A stretch of 32,412 nucleotides of DNA from Saccoglossus kowalevskii (Eukaryota > Hemichordata > Enteropneusta > Harrimaniidae). The position numbers and the translations under genes are program-made. This document shows positions 1 through 32,412 of this stretch, in pieces; positions within the stretch are counted from its first letter, which is position 1; each line of letters starts with the position of its first letter. The notes below the pieces were generated by a model that was not told the origin of the DNA, did no database searches, and saw nothing but the letters and a program-made list of their open reading frames with translations. The DNA is taken from the NCBI RefSeq assembly GCF_000003605.2, contig NW_003150777.1:1-32412 (forward strand), written 5' to 3'.

Positions 1-532
1 GTCATAATCAGGTGAATCTTGATCTGGCGGTTGGTGAATGACGTAATCGACATCTGTGTATCGCTGTGTTATTGATTTGTGAGGAGAATGGTTATCATCA
101 CGACTTTGTTCCATGGACGTGGTTAACTTGCATGTTTTTAGTATACGTTTGACTCGTCGGTTACGAAACCAATTCTGAAAAGAAAGAAATATAAAAAATG
201 GAATAAATATTTTAAAAAAACTTGTTAGTGTACGCAAAACAAAATTATACGATAGTTGGTGTGCTTTGCGTGCTGTAATACAATTTATGACTCAAAATAT
301 AGCCAAACTATCCATAATATGACAATTTATATTACCTGAACTCGGTCTTCGGGAAGATCGATGGAGTAAGCTATGCATTCCCTTGCAATTAAATCAGGAT
401 AACAGTTCATGGCGAACATCGACTCCAATGAATCTTCTTGATATTTGGTGTAGTACGTACGAACTCTGCGACCGGTATTTCTACGGCGAAGTGTATATAA
501 TCTGGATGCACTACGTTTAATCAACGAAATAT
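1..532 (-). CDS. Divergent paired-class homeobox gene, 3' part (two exons, partial)
   Basis: Two minus-strand exons encode a complete but divergent 60-residue homeodomain. The first exon (532 to 336) carries homeodomain residues 1-46 and ends CAG followed by the donor GTAATA. A 161-base intron follows. The second exon (174 to 1) starts after a pyrimidine-rich TTTCAG acceptor and carries residues 47-60 plus a polar tail that is still open at the window edge. Core positions are kept: R5, Q12, L16, F20, Y25, R31, L40, W48, F49, N51, R53. Oddities are E13 in place of the usual L, N47 in place of I/V, and R50 in place of Q/K/S. The 5' end at 532 is the CAG acceptor that gives the same phase (1) as exon 2 of the neighbouring homeobox gene. 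It lacks a good pyrimidine tract, and the frame stays open to about 590, so this boundary is uncertain. No upstream exon was found. The product is probably a nuclear DNA-binding protein. Intact splice sites and frame argue against a dead copy. Confidence 0.8.
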
Positions 533-1524
533 CTGCGTTACATGTTTCTATACTTTTTTCTATATATACTTGAATATCAACAATATTACAAATATTTTAT
601 CTGTCGTTTACTTGCGGCCTGGTAGGTATATACCGCGATTAGAATTACAATGTCTTTGTCGCAATTGCTTACAGTTGGAAGAGGTACTGTAACAGTGGCT
701 ATTATTTGATGCTGCGTGTATGTATGTAAGTGTTCCGGGGGTACTGCACCATAGAAAGAAAAGAACTCTATGGTATTTTAGAGAAGTACAATTTAATTTA
801 TTCCGTCATTTAAAATATTACCATGTTATTCAAGCATTATTTAAGAATATTCTAGTGATATTAGTCATCATACATCTGTCACTGTAACGCCATAATTTAC
901 AGCGTGCCGTAATTTTGCTGTATATTTTATATTGCGGGATATGTTTATCCTACCATATTAGGAAATGCAAATTCCAAATATGGAATAAATACGCGCGTAA
1001 GCGTTCTCTAATAATAAAAACAAACACGGCTGCCACCGGAGTTTGTCCAGACTCCACACAAAGAACTCCGCTGATTCGGTTCAACATTTTAGAAGGAAAA
1101 GATGTATAATAATCCAAATAACATATGGTTGTTACGAGGATACCTCAAAGTTTGCACTCAGACAGTACGTTGCGCACCGAACTCCGCTGCGCGTCGGTCG
1201 ATACTCCAGCTGTACTATCTTCGTGCATTCTTTGAGGTATCTTCGTAATAACCTTAATAATAATAAATGTTAATTGAATCGCATATACCAGCGGTATACC
1301 AAATACAGATTGAATTGTCTCGTTAGAGACGCACAACGGCAATAGAAATACATGATACGCGATTTGATACAAAAAAAATATCAAATACATTTGTCGTTCT
1401 ATATTGATGGAAATTAATGTTATGAATTCATACCACGTGACTCTCTGTATATGCACAATGTAATCACCAGCATCACACAAAGCTCTGAATGACAATGAAA
1501 TACAAACGATTTATTCAACAATGT

Positions 1525-1575
1525 ATTACTAGTGAATAGGTACCTCATTACGTCCACATTCAGTCTTCGTTGTGA
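1525..1575 (-). repeat. Inverted fragment of the 12.6/15.7-kb dispersed repeat
   Basis: Read on the minus strand, about 31 bases here (1525-1555) nearly match 12684-12715, including the stretch GACGTAATGAGGTA. This shows that the repeat described at 12560 and 15650 is dispersed in the genome and is not only a local tandem duplication. Confidence 0.5.
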
Positions 1576-1704
1576 TTGTATAATTACTTTCACATCCGTA
1601 TAGCAAAACTAGTGTTATATAAACATTAACAAAATAGTCATTATGTTTGTTACACCTTCCTTGGAAATATATTCAACTTTGTTACAGTGAAGACCCTCGT
1701 AGTA

Positions 1705-1940
1705 AATTGGAAGAGAGATCTTCATTCGTATGACGAGAATTTTAGGTACGCCCGTTTATGGTAACAAATTACGCCAAAGCGAAAAACCTCAGTAGCATTT
1801 CCGATTGCCTGGGATTTCAATTTACCCCATTTATCTCTCTTATTTCAGTCAGTGGGTGAAGATCCTTTCATTAGTTCAACGAGAATTTCAGGTACCCGTT
1901 TACAACAGCAAGTAACGCTAATTTCACATTGCTTAGGGTT
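1705..1940. repeat. Diverged direct repeat, two copies about 150 bp apart
   Basis: The stretch 1710-1787 and the stretch 1857-1940 share the order of blocks: GAGATC/GAAGATC, TTCATT, ACGAGAATTT, AGGTAC, CCCGTTTA, then a run resembling AACAAATTACGC or AGCAAGTAACGC. The copies are diverged and noncoding. Confidence 0.5.
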
Positions 1941-3527
1941 TTCTCTTTAACTTATTATATATTTCTCAGAAAATCTAAGCTGATATTGGCACACGCACTA
2001 TATGTAACAAAAGAAATAATAATATAATATAACCAACGTACATAACAATGGTGTATTCCCGGGGATTTATAGTAGATTTATGGTAGATTATTACGCGGCG
2101 ATGTTAATGCACAAATAATTCAATTATGGTGATTGGACATCAATTTCAAAATTGACAATTTAATGTAATTCGATTTAATTGGAGGATTACATTTAGAGCA
2201 TCAATTAAACTAAAATTATAAAATAATTTGTGGTTTTTCGACAGACACCATTCTGAGTAAACTCTCAATATTGACATCACGCTGATGTATTCAGCTGACG
2301 TCATAGCAAGGGGTGTTATTTTACATCTGACATTAGTGATGTTACTGGGAAATTTTAGCTCTCATAGTTATCCCTAATAAAAAAAAATGTTGCCAACACA
2401 GTTTGTTATTAGTCTCAGGGTTTGGATGGTGACAGTGAAACCGTTTATATGTGCGACCAGATTATGGCTGCTTAAACTACATTACTCACGATTTATAATA
2501 ACATGCTGTCTAATTAGTGAAACTGATTACATTTATGAAATAAATCACACTAGTAACACCAAACTTGGGTTATCCGCATGTAAATTTCGTTTTGAATTCA
2601 CCATTCGCGAAATTGACCGCACATATTATTTCCCTCTTTTTCACAAATACTGATCAAAGCCTTTAAAAACCTAGAAGTGTGTCTATTTGGTTAAAAATGA
2701 AAATTTAAAGGATATTCTAGACAGAATGGAGGGAGAAAATGAAAACATTCAAAAATGATAATTGATTTGTCTTCCATAAATTAGATGACGAAGTACTAAT
2801 TCGCTGATAATCTGACGTAACATCATCATTTTTTTATTCAGACGTTTTACATTCACTTATAAACCTTATTAGGTTGCTAGTTAGGAGAATAATTTCCCAC
2901 GACTGTGAAATGAAATTGAACTCAATATGGGTGTTTTCTTTTTTATCTTTAACCCTCTGAACGCTATATTTTTCCGTAACATTCTGCACATTTGTATTTT
3001 TTTTCAAAGGGTTACAGATCTTAGTTTGTGTCTTATGTGGAATGTTGTTTAAACAAATGTTTAAGCATGGCAAATATTATCTATCTGTGATCTGTCGTCT
3101 TTTTCTGTTTGAGGAAACACGCTCTCACGTGGTTTGCGTTGTCAAAACAATGTTAGACATTACAATCTGTTACACCATACAGCTGTTCTAGTCAAACCCG
3201 TATGGAAATGTGTCAAAGTAACGTTTAACGCCAAAATTCGACTTTTATAAGGAAGTCCTAATTTGGAAGAACACTACAAATAAAATGATGACATTTGATC
3301 AATACATTCATCGTCACGGATGCATCGATTTTTTAAATTGATTTGTGCCAGGCGGCATTTGTCTCTCTCGACATGTTTTAAGAGCAAATTGCAAGTGATA
3401 GTGCTGACACATAGTGTTTGGAACTTAGATGACATGGCTGTGCGGCTATTTCCCTGGCAATGGCAATTCAATGCGCTACCCTGGCGTCAACCAGACCCGG
3501 TAGAACACAAGCATCTGCGAACCTTAA

Positions 3528-3676
3528 AGCGGGAGGGTCGTCACCAGCGCACGCGCGGGAATTGAGTCCCAAGCGACGATAACAACACACGCTAAAGGCT
3601 CATAGGTAGACGCTTGTTTGTAAACAATGACACGCTATGGCCATCTGACGCATGCGCAGGTGACGACACCCCCGCT
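3528..3676. mobile_element. MITE-like element with inverted repeats, flanked by TTAA
   Basis: The left end reads AGCGGGAGGGTCGTCACC, and the right end read in reverse is AGCGGGGGTGTCGTCACC, differing at two or three positions. The match continues into TGCGCATGCG-like sequence. TTAA lies directly outside both ends (3524-3527 and 3677-3680), as expected of target duplications made by Kolobok or piggyBac elements. The element is 149 bases, GC-rich against its surroundings, and has no coding capacity, so it would be non-autonomous. The right arm holds an NRF1-like CGCATGCGCA. Confidence 0.7.
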
Positions 3677-4274
3677 TTAATCAAGGTTCCCCCAAAGTCG
3701 CATATGTTAGTGAATGAATCTCGCCAGTAGAATTGACCTTACCATTAAGTCTGTGGCACACACCCCAGGACAGGGGTCGACCATTTTGGTGTTCAGCCTA
3801 AGGTAGGTTTCGAACTTGGGTACTACCAGTGACCGATGTATTGTACATGTGAAAATACTATATTTCTATGCAGGACAGATGGATGTAACGAACAATGGAA
3901 TGGTGACACGTGACCGAAGTAGATTTGTAAAGATCGCCTCGAGTCGGGATCACCACGTGATATAATACAATGCGTGGATTTATATCATTTGTGAGGTACA
4001 TTCAAGGTTATTAATACATGTATATGACGCCTGTGTATAACCTCGCCAAAAATTGTTTAATTTCTCCATCATGACAGTCAAGTATTGTGGTTAATGTAGT
4101 TAATGTGAGCTGATTACTGCGGAAAACTGAACACTTCTCTTATTTAGTATGATAGCCCAAACCAAAACTACTGCAAGATTGTTATTCCAGGTGGGTACAC
4201 CTATACATATTAGGTACTTCATTTAAGCAATTTTTCATTAGTCAGATACGAAATAAAAAAAATGGGGTGACAAG

Positions 4275-4535
4275 TTTCAGGTTATATGCCAGTGCCTCGG
4301 AGGCGAGCCATGGCTTTGGAGGCAACCGTAAGCTGTGCCACTGCCTCTGAGGTGAATACGTTGGAGGCGAGTCGTAGCCTGTATCAGTGCGTCGAAGGTG
4401 GTGGGTTGTTTCAGTGTCTCGGAGGGGTCGCAGATGAGTCCTAGCTTGTATCAGTGTGTTGGAGGCGAGCCATGGCATTGTAGGCAAGTCCGAGCTAGTA
4501 TCGGTGTCTTGGAGCGTACCATGGCGCCATCAAAG
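4275..4535. repeat. Degenerate GC-rich minisatellite
   Basis: About six imperfect copies of a motif resembling TATCAGTGTCTCGGAGGCGA, followed by GCCATGGC, recur at irregular 30-50 base intervals. The best copies start near 4288, 4382, 4409, 4449 and 4498. GGAGGCGAG is the most constant core. Open frames across this stretch follow from the repeat and are not treated as genes. Confidence 0.6.
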
Positions 4536-4619
4536 GCAAAACATACCCTTTATCTCAGCGAGCAATGTCAAGTATTTCATCGTGAACAATTCTGTTCTTT
4601 ATATATAAATAATTGACTC

Positions 4620-5470
4620 CATTTTGGCATGAAAAATTAGATTTGGGTCTAAAATAACTTGTACAGAATAACTGATACATTTCTTAGCCAACACACAACT
4701 TAGATACACATGGCGATATTATATATTGCATGCCTATTCGGTATATTTCTGAATCATGGTATTAGCGTAAACAAAGATTGCTCGTTACAAACACAATATA
4801 TTGTGTCCATTTTGGGAACCTGTTAGTTATTGATCTGTATGGTAAATACAACTGATGTGTCGTGGCTGAAAATAGATAAATTTGCCAAATGGAAGCACTA
4901 TAAAAATAGCTAAAATACGGAATAGAGAAATGGTCGCGAAAAGTTCCATGATTATTTCACAGTTTTGCTAATTTGTTTTAATTTCCGTATTTGGTTAATT
5001 TCATCACAATAATAACACTTATATAAACAAACTTTGATTTATCATTTTGTTCCATGGCAATAGTCCTAGCTATTTTTGGATGATATTTGTCCCAATTTTT
5101 GAAAATTTATAGAACACAAAAAAAAAGTATTCACCGTTCATGCTGGTCCCAACGGTCGACATTGAGTTCTGCAAAGTCATTCAACCAATGATTTCCAGAA
5201 TTATGACCTACCTTCTTTTTATAACATTATTTTCCTTCCACCCTATTATCCATACTGAAAATATATAACATGACTACTACTCCAATTCCATTAAATGCAC
5301 ACTAAACCATGTTATATAACATACACAAAATATTTAATATAATTATTTTTTCGATATCTATATTATTTACATTCTCGGTAATAAATATCAAAACGACCCA
5401 AATTAATGGCCAGAAAAATCAGTATCTCATTCTGTTCAGTATTCTTCAAAATTTCATACACAAATATAAA
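4620..5470. other. Spacer downstream of the complete homeobox gene
   Basis: AT-rich sequence without a supportable gene. It should contain the 3' UTR and polyadenylation site of the minus-strand homeobox gene. The only candidate signal noticed is a minus-strand ATTAAA near 5333-5338, about 135 bases past the stop codon, which is a weak call. Confidence 0.4.
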
Positions 5471-8081
5471 CTATCGGTGTGTATGATGTACGGACGTCGC
5501 TGGTCGAATACTGTCGGCGGCTAGGCGAAGTAAATTCAAATTGTGGATATGAGGTACTCGTAGAGGTGGCATACTTATATTTGGACTCGGCATCCTGGTC
5601 ATACTTCCCAACGTACTTGCTACACTGAAATTTGTAAAGAAAAAAGTGTTATATAGTGTTGTTATTAAGTGTATGATAGGCTATTACCGTTTTTTTATTA
5701 TTATTTCAAAAACTTGAACGAAGTAAAAATGACAATGTGTGTGTGGGGGGGTGTGTGCGTGGGTGTGTGTGTGTATGTGTGTGTGTGTGTGTTTAATTAT
5801 GAATTGATTATGGCCTTACCTGGTATATGGCATAGCGTGGTGAGGTACTATATGAGAGGATGGTGGTGACGTGATAAATCTATTGCCGATTGATTCTCCA
5901 AGCACGTCATTCATAGATTGGTATTCTGACGTTGGTAATCCATACATATGTTGTCGCATCCATGCCATACGACCTTCTTTGTGAGTCTTCTTAAATTTGG
6001 CACGGCGATTCTGAAACCAGATCTGAACAATAAAAAGAAAGATGGTTAGATGATGTTTGAATACTAGACCATCTATAGATTCAAGATGAATGTGCGTGTG
6101 TGCGTGTGACATTCGCAGAAATAAAACTACTATGTTGTACTGGATAAAGACAGAATGAAGTAATTCATACCTGTACTCGTTCTTCGTCGAGTTTTAATTT
6201 GTCAGCTATATCCTCGCGAACTACTAGATCCGGGTACTGTTCCTGGCTAAATATACGTTCGAGGGCATCTAACTGCTGCCTGCTATAAGTCGTCCTGGAT
6301 CTTCTTGATTTCCTCGTCTTCTTGGTCGATGAACTAGACGAGTCCTCTCCATCGTCACCGGAACTGCTTTCTGAAATATTAAGATAGTATCCCACCTCGT
6401 GTTGGTTGATTGGCATTGTAGAATTCAACGGATCGTTATCTGAAGAGAAGCAACATGATAAAACAAAAACAATTAATTTCATCTTCAAATGTTATCGAAC
6501 AGTTGGATACATGTTTAACAATAAACAATCTAAAGAAAAGAGTTTTGATGCCATCAATTCAGCACGTGTTCGGACAAAGCTTAGTGGAAACCCCGGGTGT
6601 ATTATTGAAAACATTTTCAACGCGATAGATAGATAGTGCTATTTAAACAGCGTCATTTGTATAAAAAAACACATACGACGAGGGCCTGAATTTGTTTCAA
6701 TTTACTTATTCAACAAATGCTGATGGCGTCGCTGTTTTGTATCAGTTTCACCCTTAGTATTGGCAAGGTCAGAGTGCAAGACTTACGGATTTCAAAGTAA
6801 CAATAATTTGACAGACGCTACACGCGTCTCTAATGTTACCACCTGTTCCGGGTTATCATGCTGCAGTGCACATCACATTTACATGTTCAAGGTTGGGTGA
6901 TCCATTGTTCGAAATTAGCTATTTGAAAGGAACAACTTGGCCCTTAGTGAGGTAGTTGTTTGACATCCAATTGGAAGTGAATAGAAACCCTATTATGGCC
7001 AATTCCAATATTAGTCTGTGCCCACTAATTAGCCGATACTGTTTGTTAGCTATTCAAGTAAATCTAACTTTCTTTTATTGCCGCCATGTTCTTCCCACCC
7101 CTCTTTAACTTGAAAGGATGCAAAGTAAACCGTATTTGAATTTCCGATTTAATTTCTGGTGCGCGACATCTTTCCTTCAATCATCGCCGTGACGTAAGCG
7201 TATTTACTTTTTTGTTTTTATAATGTAAAGTGAATTAGTGATTTTTGTATTTTATTTTTTTGGAGAATGTATTCAGGAATATACAATCACGTGGTTGTAC
7301 AATATATATTGTGTATCATTTCACACATGGAAAGGTCTTTTAATCGCGTCCTAAATTAAAATGACCCAAATTGAAGTTTCAGCTTGGGTGGACTAAGTGA
7401 ACGACGTATAAGTCTCTCACCCTGCCTTTATATTTAATCGTGTGAAAATGTCGCGCTCGAAGGTCGCACGTTTTACATATCCTACCTATCTAAAACGGTG
7501 CCATTGCCGCTGCTGCATCCATGATGAAATAGATTCTGCCATTATGTTTTATTAATTAAAAAAACATTCGAAACAAACTTATTTCATTCGTTAATTCGAA
7601 GATTAGAAGTTATATCATGGTTTTCGTGAAATCATTACAAAATATAGTTGCTGAGCGCACTATTACAATTAAATATTGTCATCAAATCATGGTAAAAAGG
7701 CAATTTAAATAGCATGTTCTCGGCGGCATTTAATTTTAACTTACCCTTAATATTGTCGTCCTTGACTTCGAGATGCACATCCTTCGTTTCAATCATTTCA
7801 TTCTGTCGCATTTGGTTCGATTTACTGCAATCTTTGTTAGGCGTCGATACACACTTCTTTCCATCGGTCTGTATTTCCGGCAAAGAAACGGGTTTCGATG
7901 GAGGCGCAGCGACTTCGACACCCAATATGGCGTTTATTGTGAACGACGTCGATGCTCGGCCGACCATCGTATCAGTCACGGGACCGCTACGCCGGTGTTC
8001 TCCAGAAAGAAGGCGAGACTCACTTTCAAATCCGGTAATATTACGTGAACGACAGGGGAGAACTGGGCCAGTGCGGAACAT
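5471..8081 (-). CDS. Paired-class (Q50) homeobox transcription factor, complete, four exons, Anf/Hesx-like
   Basis: Coding exons on the minus strand are 8081-7745, 6439-6171, 6022-5820 and 5624-5471, 963 bases for 320 residues. Every junction is GT-AG with matching phase (1, 0, 2). The first donor, G|GTAAGT, is near-perfect. The start is the only ATG in its frame before an upstream stop. Residues 47-54 are FTINAILG, an eh1/octapeptide motif known to recruit Groucho/TLE co-repressors. Residues 135-151 are acidic and serine-rich. The homeodomain spans about 157-216, with R5, W48, Q50, N51 and the run IWFQNRRAKFKKTH, and is interrupted after residue 46, a common paired-class intron site. Residues 297-310 hold LLRLAADSIR, a weak match to the OAR tail motif (LRLKA). 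The eh1 motif, I47 and the NRRAKxKxxHxE ending recall vertebrate Anf/Hesx, but orthology is not proven; it could be a lineage-specific orphan. It is probably a nuclear repressor. It lies in tandem with the homeobox gene at 1-532. Confidence 0.9.
5625..5819 (-). other. Intron 3 of the homeobox gene, with GT microsatellite
   Basis: The 195-base intron joins phase-2 exons (ACC AG|GTAAGG to TTTCAG|T). A GT-rich microsatellite with a G7 interruption fills 5736-5792 on the plus strand, so the pre-mRNA carries an AC-rich tract. Confidence 0.8.
6440..7744 (-). other. Intron 1 of the homeobox gene
   Basis: A 1305-base intron between the eh1-coding exon and the homeodomain exon, donor GGTAAGT and acceptor CTCTTCAG. 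No exon, RNA gene or element was recognised. Two CACGTG hexamers lie in it (6563-6568, 7288-7293). Confidence 0.75.
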
Positions 8082-14327: not shown

Positions 14328-14431
<104 letters not shown>

Positions 14432-15180
14432 TGAATAATATGAAATATTGAGATTTGTGAATGCAAATAGACATCACATTTATGCCCGAACATCCTAGTA
14501 AGCGCTGTGCTTAACCAGGAATTCGATGTAATGTACAATGACCGATGTATTTAAAATACTGGCGAAAAAGCAATTGTGTTGCATAACTATTGTACTTGGG
14601 AATAGCAAGTTTATTGTTAGTGTAAAGTGTCACTTAATGGGATGTTAATCCCTTGGGAAGTCATTTAGTGAATATATATTGTTAGACGAACTAATTAGCA
14701 CACACATGTTACAGATTGAATCGAATGTAATCTTTCAATTAAATAAGATTACATCAATTTATCAGTCTTGAAATCTAATCTACAATTGGATTACAACACC
14801 GACGTGTCAGCTACGAGTAATCACACTCGTCCATGCTAAAATAACCAGATTCCACAAAGTCACATTGCTTACTGGTACCTTGCTCGAGAATTGCCTGTAA
14901 CGCGAGTATGATTGGTTGAGAATTCTACGTGATTTGTATTGGGAATTGGTTTAATTTTCACTTACTATAAAAGACTATCGACAATCGATTCAATCAGATA
15001 GTCAAGATAATTTTTCTGCAAAATATTATTTTTCTACGCCATTAATCGATTGAAAATGATGATTATGACATCTTTTTGAAATTTTTGTGAATTATATTAT
15101 TATGAATTGCATTATAGGGCATACAGGTTGAAACGTGATAAACGTTTGTATTTCTACGCTGTAATCAAGGTTAAATTTCG

Positions 15181-15590
15181 GAATAGTGGTGACCGTGCTA
15201 GTCCCATACCATGTATTGTTTGAATAGTGGTGACCGTGCTAGTCCCATACCATGTAGTGTTTGAATAGTGGTGACCGTGCTAGTCCCATACCATGTATTG
15301 TTTGAATAGTGGTGACCGTGCTAGTCCCATACCATGTATTGTTTGAATAGTGGTGACCGTGCTAGTCCCATACCATGTATTGTTTGAATAGTGGTGACCG
15401 TGCTAGTCCCATACCATGTATTGTTTGAATAGTGGTGACCGTGCTAGTCCCATACCATGTATTGTTTGAATAGTGGTGACCGTGCTAGTCCCATACCATG
15501 TATTGTTTGAATAGTGGTGACCGTGCTAGTCCCATACCATGTATTGTTTGAATAGTGGTGACCGTGCTAGTCCCATACCATGTAGTGTTT
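15181..15590. repeat. Minisatellite, ten tandem copies of a 41-bp unit
   Basis: Units start at 15181, 15222, 15263 and every 41 bases to 15550. Each runs from GAATAGTGGTGACCGTGCTA through GTCCCATACCATGTATTG to TTT. Copies are identical except that units 2 and 10 read GTAGTG where the rest read GTATTG. A unit length of 41 shifts the frame every copy, so it is not coding. Confidence 0.98.
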
Positions 15591-15649
15591 GTACGATCAC
15601 GATGAACACCAAACACTGCCTCGTACAACAGGCAGAGACATTTCACTGT

Positions 15650-26700: not shown

Positions 26701-26803
26701 TTTTTATAGCCGTCTGACCCGGAAGTAATGTTAGTGTGTTATTGTTCAAAGTGATTCGAAGCATGGTGTTGGCTGGACGAGGGTTGCAAGAGTCACTGTG
26801 ACT
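26701..26803 (+). promoter_or_regulatory. Candidate promoter/5' UTR of the ankyrin gene, with upstream ORF
   Basis: ACCCGGAAGTAA (about 26717-26728) matches the ETS-family GGAA consensus, and TTTTTATAG lies just upstream at 26701. A 12-codon upstream ORF (ATG at 26763, stop at 26799-26801, A at -3) ends two bases before the main ATG, an arrangement that could dampen initiation at the main start. Confidence 0.35.
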
Positions 26804-27075
26804 ATGACTGTTATCATGAATTCTCTTATTGCTGAAGTGAAGAAAGGCAACATCGAAGGTGTGGAGTCAATATTGAAGCACTCAGACAATTGCAGTATCG
26901 TTAACTTTCAAGACACCGACAGACGGGAGACCGCACTCTTCACTGCGTGTGCCCAGGGCTTTTTAGCTATCGTGCAGTTGCTGATCTCGTTTGGCGCTAA
27001 TCTTGGCTTATACACGGTATGGGGAGCTACACCTCTACACGCTGCAGCAGAAAATGGCCACGAGCAGATAGTACG
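26804..27075 (+). CDS. Ankyrin-repeat protein, first coding exon (partial)
   Basis: The exon encodes 90 residues plus two bases and ends ACG|GTAAGT, a strong donor in phase 2. The start is the first ATG in a frame closed by an upstream stop at 26732; residue 5 is a second possible start. Residues 7-37 form a capping ankyrin-like helix pair (LIAEVKKGNIEGVESILKH). Residues 40-72 are a full repeat (ETALFTACAQGFLAIVQLLI, then SFGAN). Residues 73-90 begin the next repeat with the canonical GATPLHAAAENGHEQIV. Ankyrin repeats are protein-binding scaffolds, and the exon alone does not tell which family this is. No further ankyrin exon was found up to the window end, so intron 1 would exceed 5.3 kb if the gene continues. 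Confidence 0.88.
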
Positions 27076-27402
27076 GTAAGTTTTCAACTGAAACAAACTC
27101 CCCTTAAATGTCACCTTCCAGAACCGGTGTTACGCGAGATCGTTTGAATTGCTAGTTGTAGCTATAGAGGACCGCCATGGTATGCGGAACAAGGAAATAG
27201 CAAAACAAAAATCAATTGATATCGTTTTTCAGACTTAGGGCAAACCATTCTATGCCCAATGATGGACTGAAAAACAATAAATTTCTCCTTCCCCAAATCA
27301 GTGAATGATTGTCATAATATATTTACAGTTTAATATCGCGCCAAAGTCTTGTAGTATTCGCGTAGTCAAGACCTATATAATCTATACAGTTGTATAGAAT
27401 TT

Positions 27403-32082: not shown

Positions 32083-32412
32083 CGGAACCCAAAACATACC
32101 CATCACATTGCTGAACCCAAAACATACCCATCACATTGCTAAACCCAAAACATATCCATCACACTGCTAAACCCAAAACATACCCATCACATTGCTAAAC
32201 CCAAAACATACCCATCACATTGCTGAACCCATCACATTGCTAAACCAAAACATACCCATCACATTGCTAAACCAAAACACACCCATCACATTGCTAAACC
32301 AAAACACACCCATCACATTGCTAACCCCAAAACATGCCCATCACATTGCTATACCCAAAACATACCCATCACATTGCTAAACCCAAAACATACCCATCAC
32401 ATTGCTGAACCC
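32083..32412. repeat. 28-bp minisatellite, continues past the window
   Basis: About twelve copies of a unit that runs AAACCCAAAACATACCCATC then ACATTGCT. Variants lack one C, and one copy near 32222-32241 lacks about ten bases. The strand bias (almost no G) is strong. The array is still running at the last base. Confidence 0.95.

Follow-up and report, generated by a model that had tools for sequence, protein, structure and literature searches.

A paired-like homeobox gene at the edge of an amplified array in the hemichordate Saccoglossus kowalevskii, and its unproven resemblance to Anf/Hesx1

Contig NW_003150777.1 of Saccoglossus kowalevskii carries two homeobox genes near its left end, here called A and B, and the question that they raise is whether a hemichordate possesses a relative of the vertebrate Anf/Hesx1 genes. 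According to PMC5180219, two homeobox introns, an ESQ flank and a homeodomain placed close to the C-terminus characterize the Anf class, whose emergence that paper links with the origin of the telencephalon. The same paper states that invertebrates lack Anf/Hesx1 and that none was found in Saccoglossus. Hesx is also among the families without invertebrate orthologues according to PMC2211742, a tapeworm paper did not find it either, and in our own literature searches, which covered titles and the beginnings of abstracts, no report of an invertebrate Anf was noticed. We analysed the whole stretch of 32,412 nucleotides (the window), which contains 729 N bases and corresponds to C4084:1-32412 in our searches of the 572-Mb assembly (4830 contigs). 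According to these analyses, gene B is a weak and unproven candidate relative of Anf/Hesx1. We hold it to be probable, with real room for doubt, that B is a hemichordate paired-like gene, single in the assembly, which adjoins the edge of an amplified array of two other homeobox genes (A and C) and most likely encodes a transcriptional repressor.

Gene B and the edge of the A/C array

The features on which the argument rests are the following, all on the minus strand except the array edge, which has no strand.

1..174, minus: edge copy of gene A, exon from homeodomain position 47 (NWFRNRRVKRILKT..) onwards, leaving the contig end; acceptor TTTCAG before AATTGG (array copies extend to a stop)
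336..532, minus: edge copy of gene A, homeodomain exon with positions 1-46 and upstream residues; the acceptor at 532 is a candidate (Pfam PF00046, 3.8e-9)
489..527, no strand: limit of the A/C array on this contig; resemblance to the array unit weakens here, then ends (blastn to C2714 stops at 510-527; alignment of the C2714 end)
5471..5624, minus: gene B exon 4, up to the stop codon (spliced frame)
5820..6022, minus: gene B exon 3, homeodomain positions 47-60 (IWFQNRRAKFKKTH) and tail KEGRMAWMRQ.. (spliced frame)
6171..6439, minus: gene B exon 2, homeodomain positions 1-46 (Pfam 1.8e-13; GT-AG sites)
7745..8081, minus: gene B exon 1, 337 coding bases from the ATG at 8081, ending in phase 1 (spliced frame)
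7920..7943, minus: engrailed-type (eh1/octapeptide) motif FTINAILG of gene B, residues 47-54 (motif scan)

The two exons matching PF00046 confirm two minus-strand homeodomains in the window, and most of what a preliminary description had read from the letters alone holds for them. They lie on the same strand and about 5 kb apart (4938 bp from the candidate exon start of A at 532 to the stop of B at 5471), they are identical at 29 of 60 homeodomain residues (29 of 59 in the earlier count), and both homeodomains are split between positions 46 and 47 at GT-AG sites. The intron before the homeodomain exon is in phase 1 in B and is read in the same phase in other copies of A, while FTINAILG (first residue 47) and the helix 3 motif of B, as well as NCYPD in A, are where they had been described.

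Gene B spans 5471-8081 and its four exons yield a clean spliced frame of 963 bases, with a predicted protein of 320 amino acids. Its introns are of the GT-AG type, in phases 1, 0 and 2, the first of them being the one that precedes the homeodomain exon. The homeodomain occupies residues 157-216, bears Ile at position 47 and Gln at position 50, and is followed by 104 residues. Searched against Pfam, the spliced protein matches the homeodomain (2e-22), with two further matches below the cut-off, while neither a Paired domain nor an OAR motif was matched. With a homeodomain of the paired (PRD) type, a 46/47 intron and no Paired domain found, B answers to the definition of a paired-like gene, and it joins the PRD rows in our trees. 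No close copy was found in its own genome: its own two exons score 87.5 and 79.9 bits and the next match 48.7 (79 candidates scored). The same query against the viral_contigs set returned nine stretches that fit a pattern, none of them a relative. From a functional perspective, the Q50 homeodomain would bind TAAT-type sites, probably paired as in other paired-class proteins, and the N-terminal eh1 motif would recruit Groucho/TLE; this combination of motifs suggests a DNA-binding repressor acting through Groucho, and B is probably Groucho-dependent.

Gene A, in contrast, is not one half of a simple tandem pair, as first described. A second contig of 10,208 bases, C2714, carries three copies of A and three copies of a third paired-like gene, C, which alternate on opposite strands with a spacing of 3.8-4.0 kb. 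The window copy of A shows 96-98% DNA identity to the C2714 copies over positions 1-527 and none beyond (blastn and alignment); over 109 codons it is identical to one array copy, while two changes separate it from a second copy and one change from the third. Since further copies of A form an array on C2714 and the similarity ends at 489-527, the reported pair consists of gene B and the edge of the A/C array. Gene A had also been called partial, and it is indeed incomplete, but not merely so, since its 3' end leaves the contig and its 5' end is the array edge. Intact array copies begin with an exon MKPEVNMTPC.., followed by a phase-1 intron and the homeodomain exon. Nothing in the window matches this exon credibly (best E 6.2), and the acceptor assigned to the window copy (exon start 532) differs from the one that the array copies appear to use. 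With its first exon missing and both ends cut, the window copy is probably non-functional.

The array copies of A look recent: compared pairwise over 201 codons, they show 1/4, 0/5 and 1/7 synonymous/replacement changes, so that strong constraint is not evident, though the changes are too few to prove anything. Gene A has Arg at position 50, which makes it likely to bind other sites than a Q50 homeodomain, and no eh1-type motif was seen in its first exon. Gene C combines a first exon with an eh1-like HTIACILS, a phase-1 intron (by reading), a 46/47 intron and V47. The three genes have a common layout (short first exon, phase-1 intron, homeodomain exon, 46/47 intron, tail), which, together with the edge copy of A beside B, suggests a common descent and a single local family, in which A and C would evolve faster than B. 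When Anf is left out of the trees, A+B is recovered in 882 of 1000 replicates and A+B+C in 657. The preliminary description had offered an orphan pair specific to the lineage as its alternative; an orphan set of paired-class genes does fit better, yet as an amplified cluster, not as a pair.

The following observations weigh against this picture. The main array is on C2714 and gene B on C4084, so that the link between them depends on the edge copy of A in the window, and we infer that the two contigs are continuous. The A+B grouping is unstable once Anf is present (802, 550 and 15 of 1000 across sets). Finally, Anf is the best-scoring position for B in the 52-row trees considered below.

The ambulacrarian phb/pmar1/hbox12 genes

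The nearest known setting for A, B and C is the ambulacrarian phb/pmar1/hbox12 genes, and the three may be hemichordate members of that family, which overlaps with our preferred reading and would give the local family a name. We regard this as possible, although clearly short of an even chance. The family is ambulacrarian and duplicates in tandem, a phb1-related sequence has been reported in Saccoglossus (excerpts of PMC4709884 and PMC11310086), and, among invertebrate homeodomains, those of Micro/Pmar are reported to come nearest to Anf (excerpts of PMC5180219). Recent tandem arrays, repressor-type motifs and fast evolution likewise recall echinoderm phb/pmar1/micro1/hbox12 as far as the available descriptions go. 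Tandem multicopy organization of the phb type is found in A and C (three each on C2714), not in B, and a starfish PhbA primer that reads VQVWFQ in one frame fits gene C (V47), not gene B (I47).

On the other side, sea urchin hbox12/pmar1 genes, in the excerpts at hand, have two exons, a homeodomain near the N-terminus and octapeptides behind it, in the C-terminal part. Gene B has four exons, and both B and C carry an eh1-type motif before the homeodomain and a further intron, the eh1-like motif of C lying in its first exon ahead of the 46/47 intron. The comparison draws on published descriptions of these genes. B is best characterized as an ambulacrarian paired-like gene.

Resemblance to Anf/Hesx1 and to canonical families

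Could B be a true hemichordate orthologue of Anf/Hesx1, acting as an eh1-Groucho repressor, so that Anf would be older than vertebrates? We think this unlikely, even though several comparisons point towards it. For these, we scored 38 homeodomains of the genome, out of the 95 matches listed in a genome homeodomain search. Among these 38, B is the best match of HESX1 over positions 1-64 (192, next 169 for Prrx and Otx), over positions 1-46 (117, with A at 116) and over positions 47-64 (75, with Gsc at 62). With frog Anf as the query against the whole genome, the homeodomain exon of B (42.1 bits) is the best among the listed exons cut at 46/47 (Otx 40.0). Compared with vertebrate Anf/Hesx1 as presented in excerpts of PMC5180219, B also has the eh1-type motif towards its N-terminus, the intron at 46/47, Ile at position 47 and, where helix 3 ends, a KxxHxE run (KKTHKE just past it, against KRSHRE).

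Other comparisons point away from Anf. Nine uncut homeodomains, non-paired by eye, outscore B for the frog Anf query, and the top scores of B itself go to DRGX (196) and PRRX1 (191), with frog Anf (189) and HESX1 (184) behind them. When B was searched against the PDB, six DUX4 chains came first (two homeodomains summed), followed by ceh-37 (78.5), prd (76.6) and PRRX2 (69.9), while the HESX1 entry 2k40 scored 65.4 bits, a value reduced because 2k40 differs at two positions from the HESX1 sequence used here. Three features of the Anf class fail in B: it has the 46/47 intron alone instead of two homeobox introns, its homeodomain (157-216 of 320) is not near the C-terminus, and positions 61-64 read KEGR in place of the ESQ flank, with E alone in common. 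The N-terminal engrailed-type repressor motif is present (FTINAILG), but eh1 motifs and the 46/47 intron are common across paired-like genes (excerpts of PMC5180219 and PMC4901127), so neither is specific to Anf.

Trees were computed on several alignments. With B as the sole local orphan in a 52-row set, B+Anf is recovered in 919 of 1000 replicates under LG+G4 and at 92/90 under posterior mean site frequencies (PMSF); in a 48-row set, which is the same without MIXL1, Mix.1, PROP1 and GSC2, it reaches 98/85. The 52-row set also yields twelve groupings of other genes of the genome with known families at 816-1000 of 1000, while our guesses for locus L017 fared worse (Alx 0, Drgx 224 of 1000). However, the tested alternatives are not rejected by the approximately unbiased (AU) test, with p values of 0.155 for B+Prrx, 0.158 for B+DRGX, 0.143 for B+L017 and 0.156 for Anf+Mix.

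Moreover, the grouping is fragile. In a 45-row set with DUX4 and A, ANF+B drops to 2 of 1000, with ANF+DUX at 631 and A+B at 802, and the PMSF tree joins A, B, Anf and DUX at 94/96; AU p values for groupings held in this set are 0.218 (ANF+B), 0.047 (ANF+A+B), 0.381 (A+B) and 0.337 (ANF+A). Successive removal of the DUX, A and ANTP rows raises ANF+B to 66, 750 and 908 of 1000, while B+Anf stands at 6 of 1000 when A, C and a paired-like gene from contig C837 are all in the tree. Without columns 47 and 57-60, it falls to 61 of 1000 and 10 of 400, and B moves to the Prrx rows (629+223 of 1000; 138, and 153 more with SHOX, of 400). With FastTree, B+Anf appears in 58 of 150 replicates on all columns and in 28 of 100 without those five; since twelve random removals of five columns give 6-24 of 40, these columns are not special by that program.

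Most telling is a control without B and the other local orphans: of 400 bootstrap trees read, 380 join Anf to Xenopus Mix.1, an implausible result, which indicates that Anf attracts long rows and that a value near 92 for B+Anf weighs little; the ANF+DUX4 grouping likewise shows divergent rows being drawn to Anf. Gene A ends in a branch of 1.81 and is pulled towards Anf in 924 of 1000 replicates without B. As a fast-evolving array gene with Arg at position 50, it makes little case for Anf, and the pull may well be long-branch attraction. The resemblance to Anf/Hesx first noticed in this locus therefore stands in part: B is the best match of HESX1 among the 38 homeodomains scored and scores best with Anf in the 52-row trees, but the placement is not significant and is fragile. 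Because of this fragility and of the three failing features, B is not filed as Anf. It is correspondingly doubtful that B, besides being the hemichordate Anf/Hesx1 orthologue, occupies the least-derived position in a deuterostome family uniting Anf and phb.

That B would have arisen within its lineage by duplication and divergence from a canonical family, Prrx or Drgx for example, as its highest raw scores and its move to Prrx without columns 47 and 57-60 might suggest, is still less probable, since Prrx (L019) and a Drgx-like exon (L045, labelled by eye) are present elsewhere in the genome and the B+Prrx and B+DRGX trees lie 5-6 log units under the best tree, albeit without being rejected. 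With the canonical paired-like families (Prrx, Drgx, Otx, Gsc, Rax), B shares the homeodomain class, the 46/47 intron and 28-35 of 60 homeodomain residues, while a clear or likely gene of each exists elsewhere. Orthology of B with Gsc, Otx, Rax, Pitx, Dmbx, Phox2, Otp, Uncx, Hbn, Isx or Prrx was rejected, each family having its own likely gene elsewhere in the genome.

Other features and implications

Besides the homeodomains, the sole coding match found in the 32-kb contig is an ankyrin-repeat open frame (26735-27079, plus strand; Ank_2, 2e-13) that ends at a possible splice donor and probably represents exon 1 of an ankyrin gene. Ten other open frames have no Pfam match below 0.01 (best 0.036, in one of them), and scans of the window gave no tRNA and no Rfam match at the gathering score. 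Repeats comprise an AAT run (14328-14440) and ten copies of a 41-base unit at 99% (15181-15591); the contig closes on its right side with a 28-base repeat (32086-32412).

Elsewhere in the genome, contig C257 carries homeodomain exons of Hbn (plus, 181213), Rax (minus, 228646) and Otp (minus, 435183) over about 254 kb. According to excerpts of PMC2938728, a survey did not find Hbn in a chordate, and Hbn and Rax on opposite strands, as on C257, represent the protostome arrangement, unlike that of the sea urchin. An Isx-like gene (L022, C1795) groups with human ISX in 967 of 1000 replicates; Isx was listed in 2007 among the families without invertebrate orthologues (PMC2211742). The paired-like gene on C837 (L010, C837:1-9000) is divergent and duplicated in tandem, with LFTMDSILQ (LFRMDSILQ in the second copy) and PLDLS-type motifs behind the homeodomain, and a related homeodomain on C1942 (L042) has an in-frame stop. 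Neighbouring NK/Vent-like genes, labelled by eye, were seen on C472 (two, L011) and C425 (two read, L012-L013), and an orphan exon on C4668 (L041) has one residue more before YPD (HNVSKYPD). Five homeodomains (L057, L058, L071-L073) are presumably of the posterior Hox type, judging by the signatures that we associate with it. In the mitochondrial genes, AAA occupies what we take to be the usual Lys positions of NAD1 (GER[AAA]ALGYMQAR[AAA]GP), with AGA at Ser and TGA at Trp, and ATA the presumed Ile positions of COX1, both the conserved residues and the code rules being assumed. In the echinoderm mitochondrial code, AAA encodes Asn. Along with the presence of Hbn, these signatures agree with a hemichordate host and favour neither an echinoderm (AAA at Lys positions) nor a protostome (five posterior Hox-type homeodomains, ATA at Ile positions); the opposite strands of Hbn and Rax speak weakly against a hemichordate.

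Returning to gene B, it is a good test case for a vertebrate-only Anf, and so far no evidence against that claim: it provides a concrete, intact hemichordate gene with which the claim can be put to a direct test. Were B an Anf orthologue after all, the hybrid Anf homeodomain, with a paired-type first part and an ANTP-like helix 3 exon, would predate vertebrates, the origin of Anf would shift to the deuterostome ancestor, and Anf would have seemed absent outside vertebrates because it had gone unrecognized there. As for the A/C array, it shows that paired-like homeobox genes have been amplified very recently outside echinoderms too; in echinoderms, amplified pmar1 genes control an early embryonic step.

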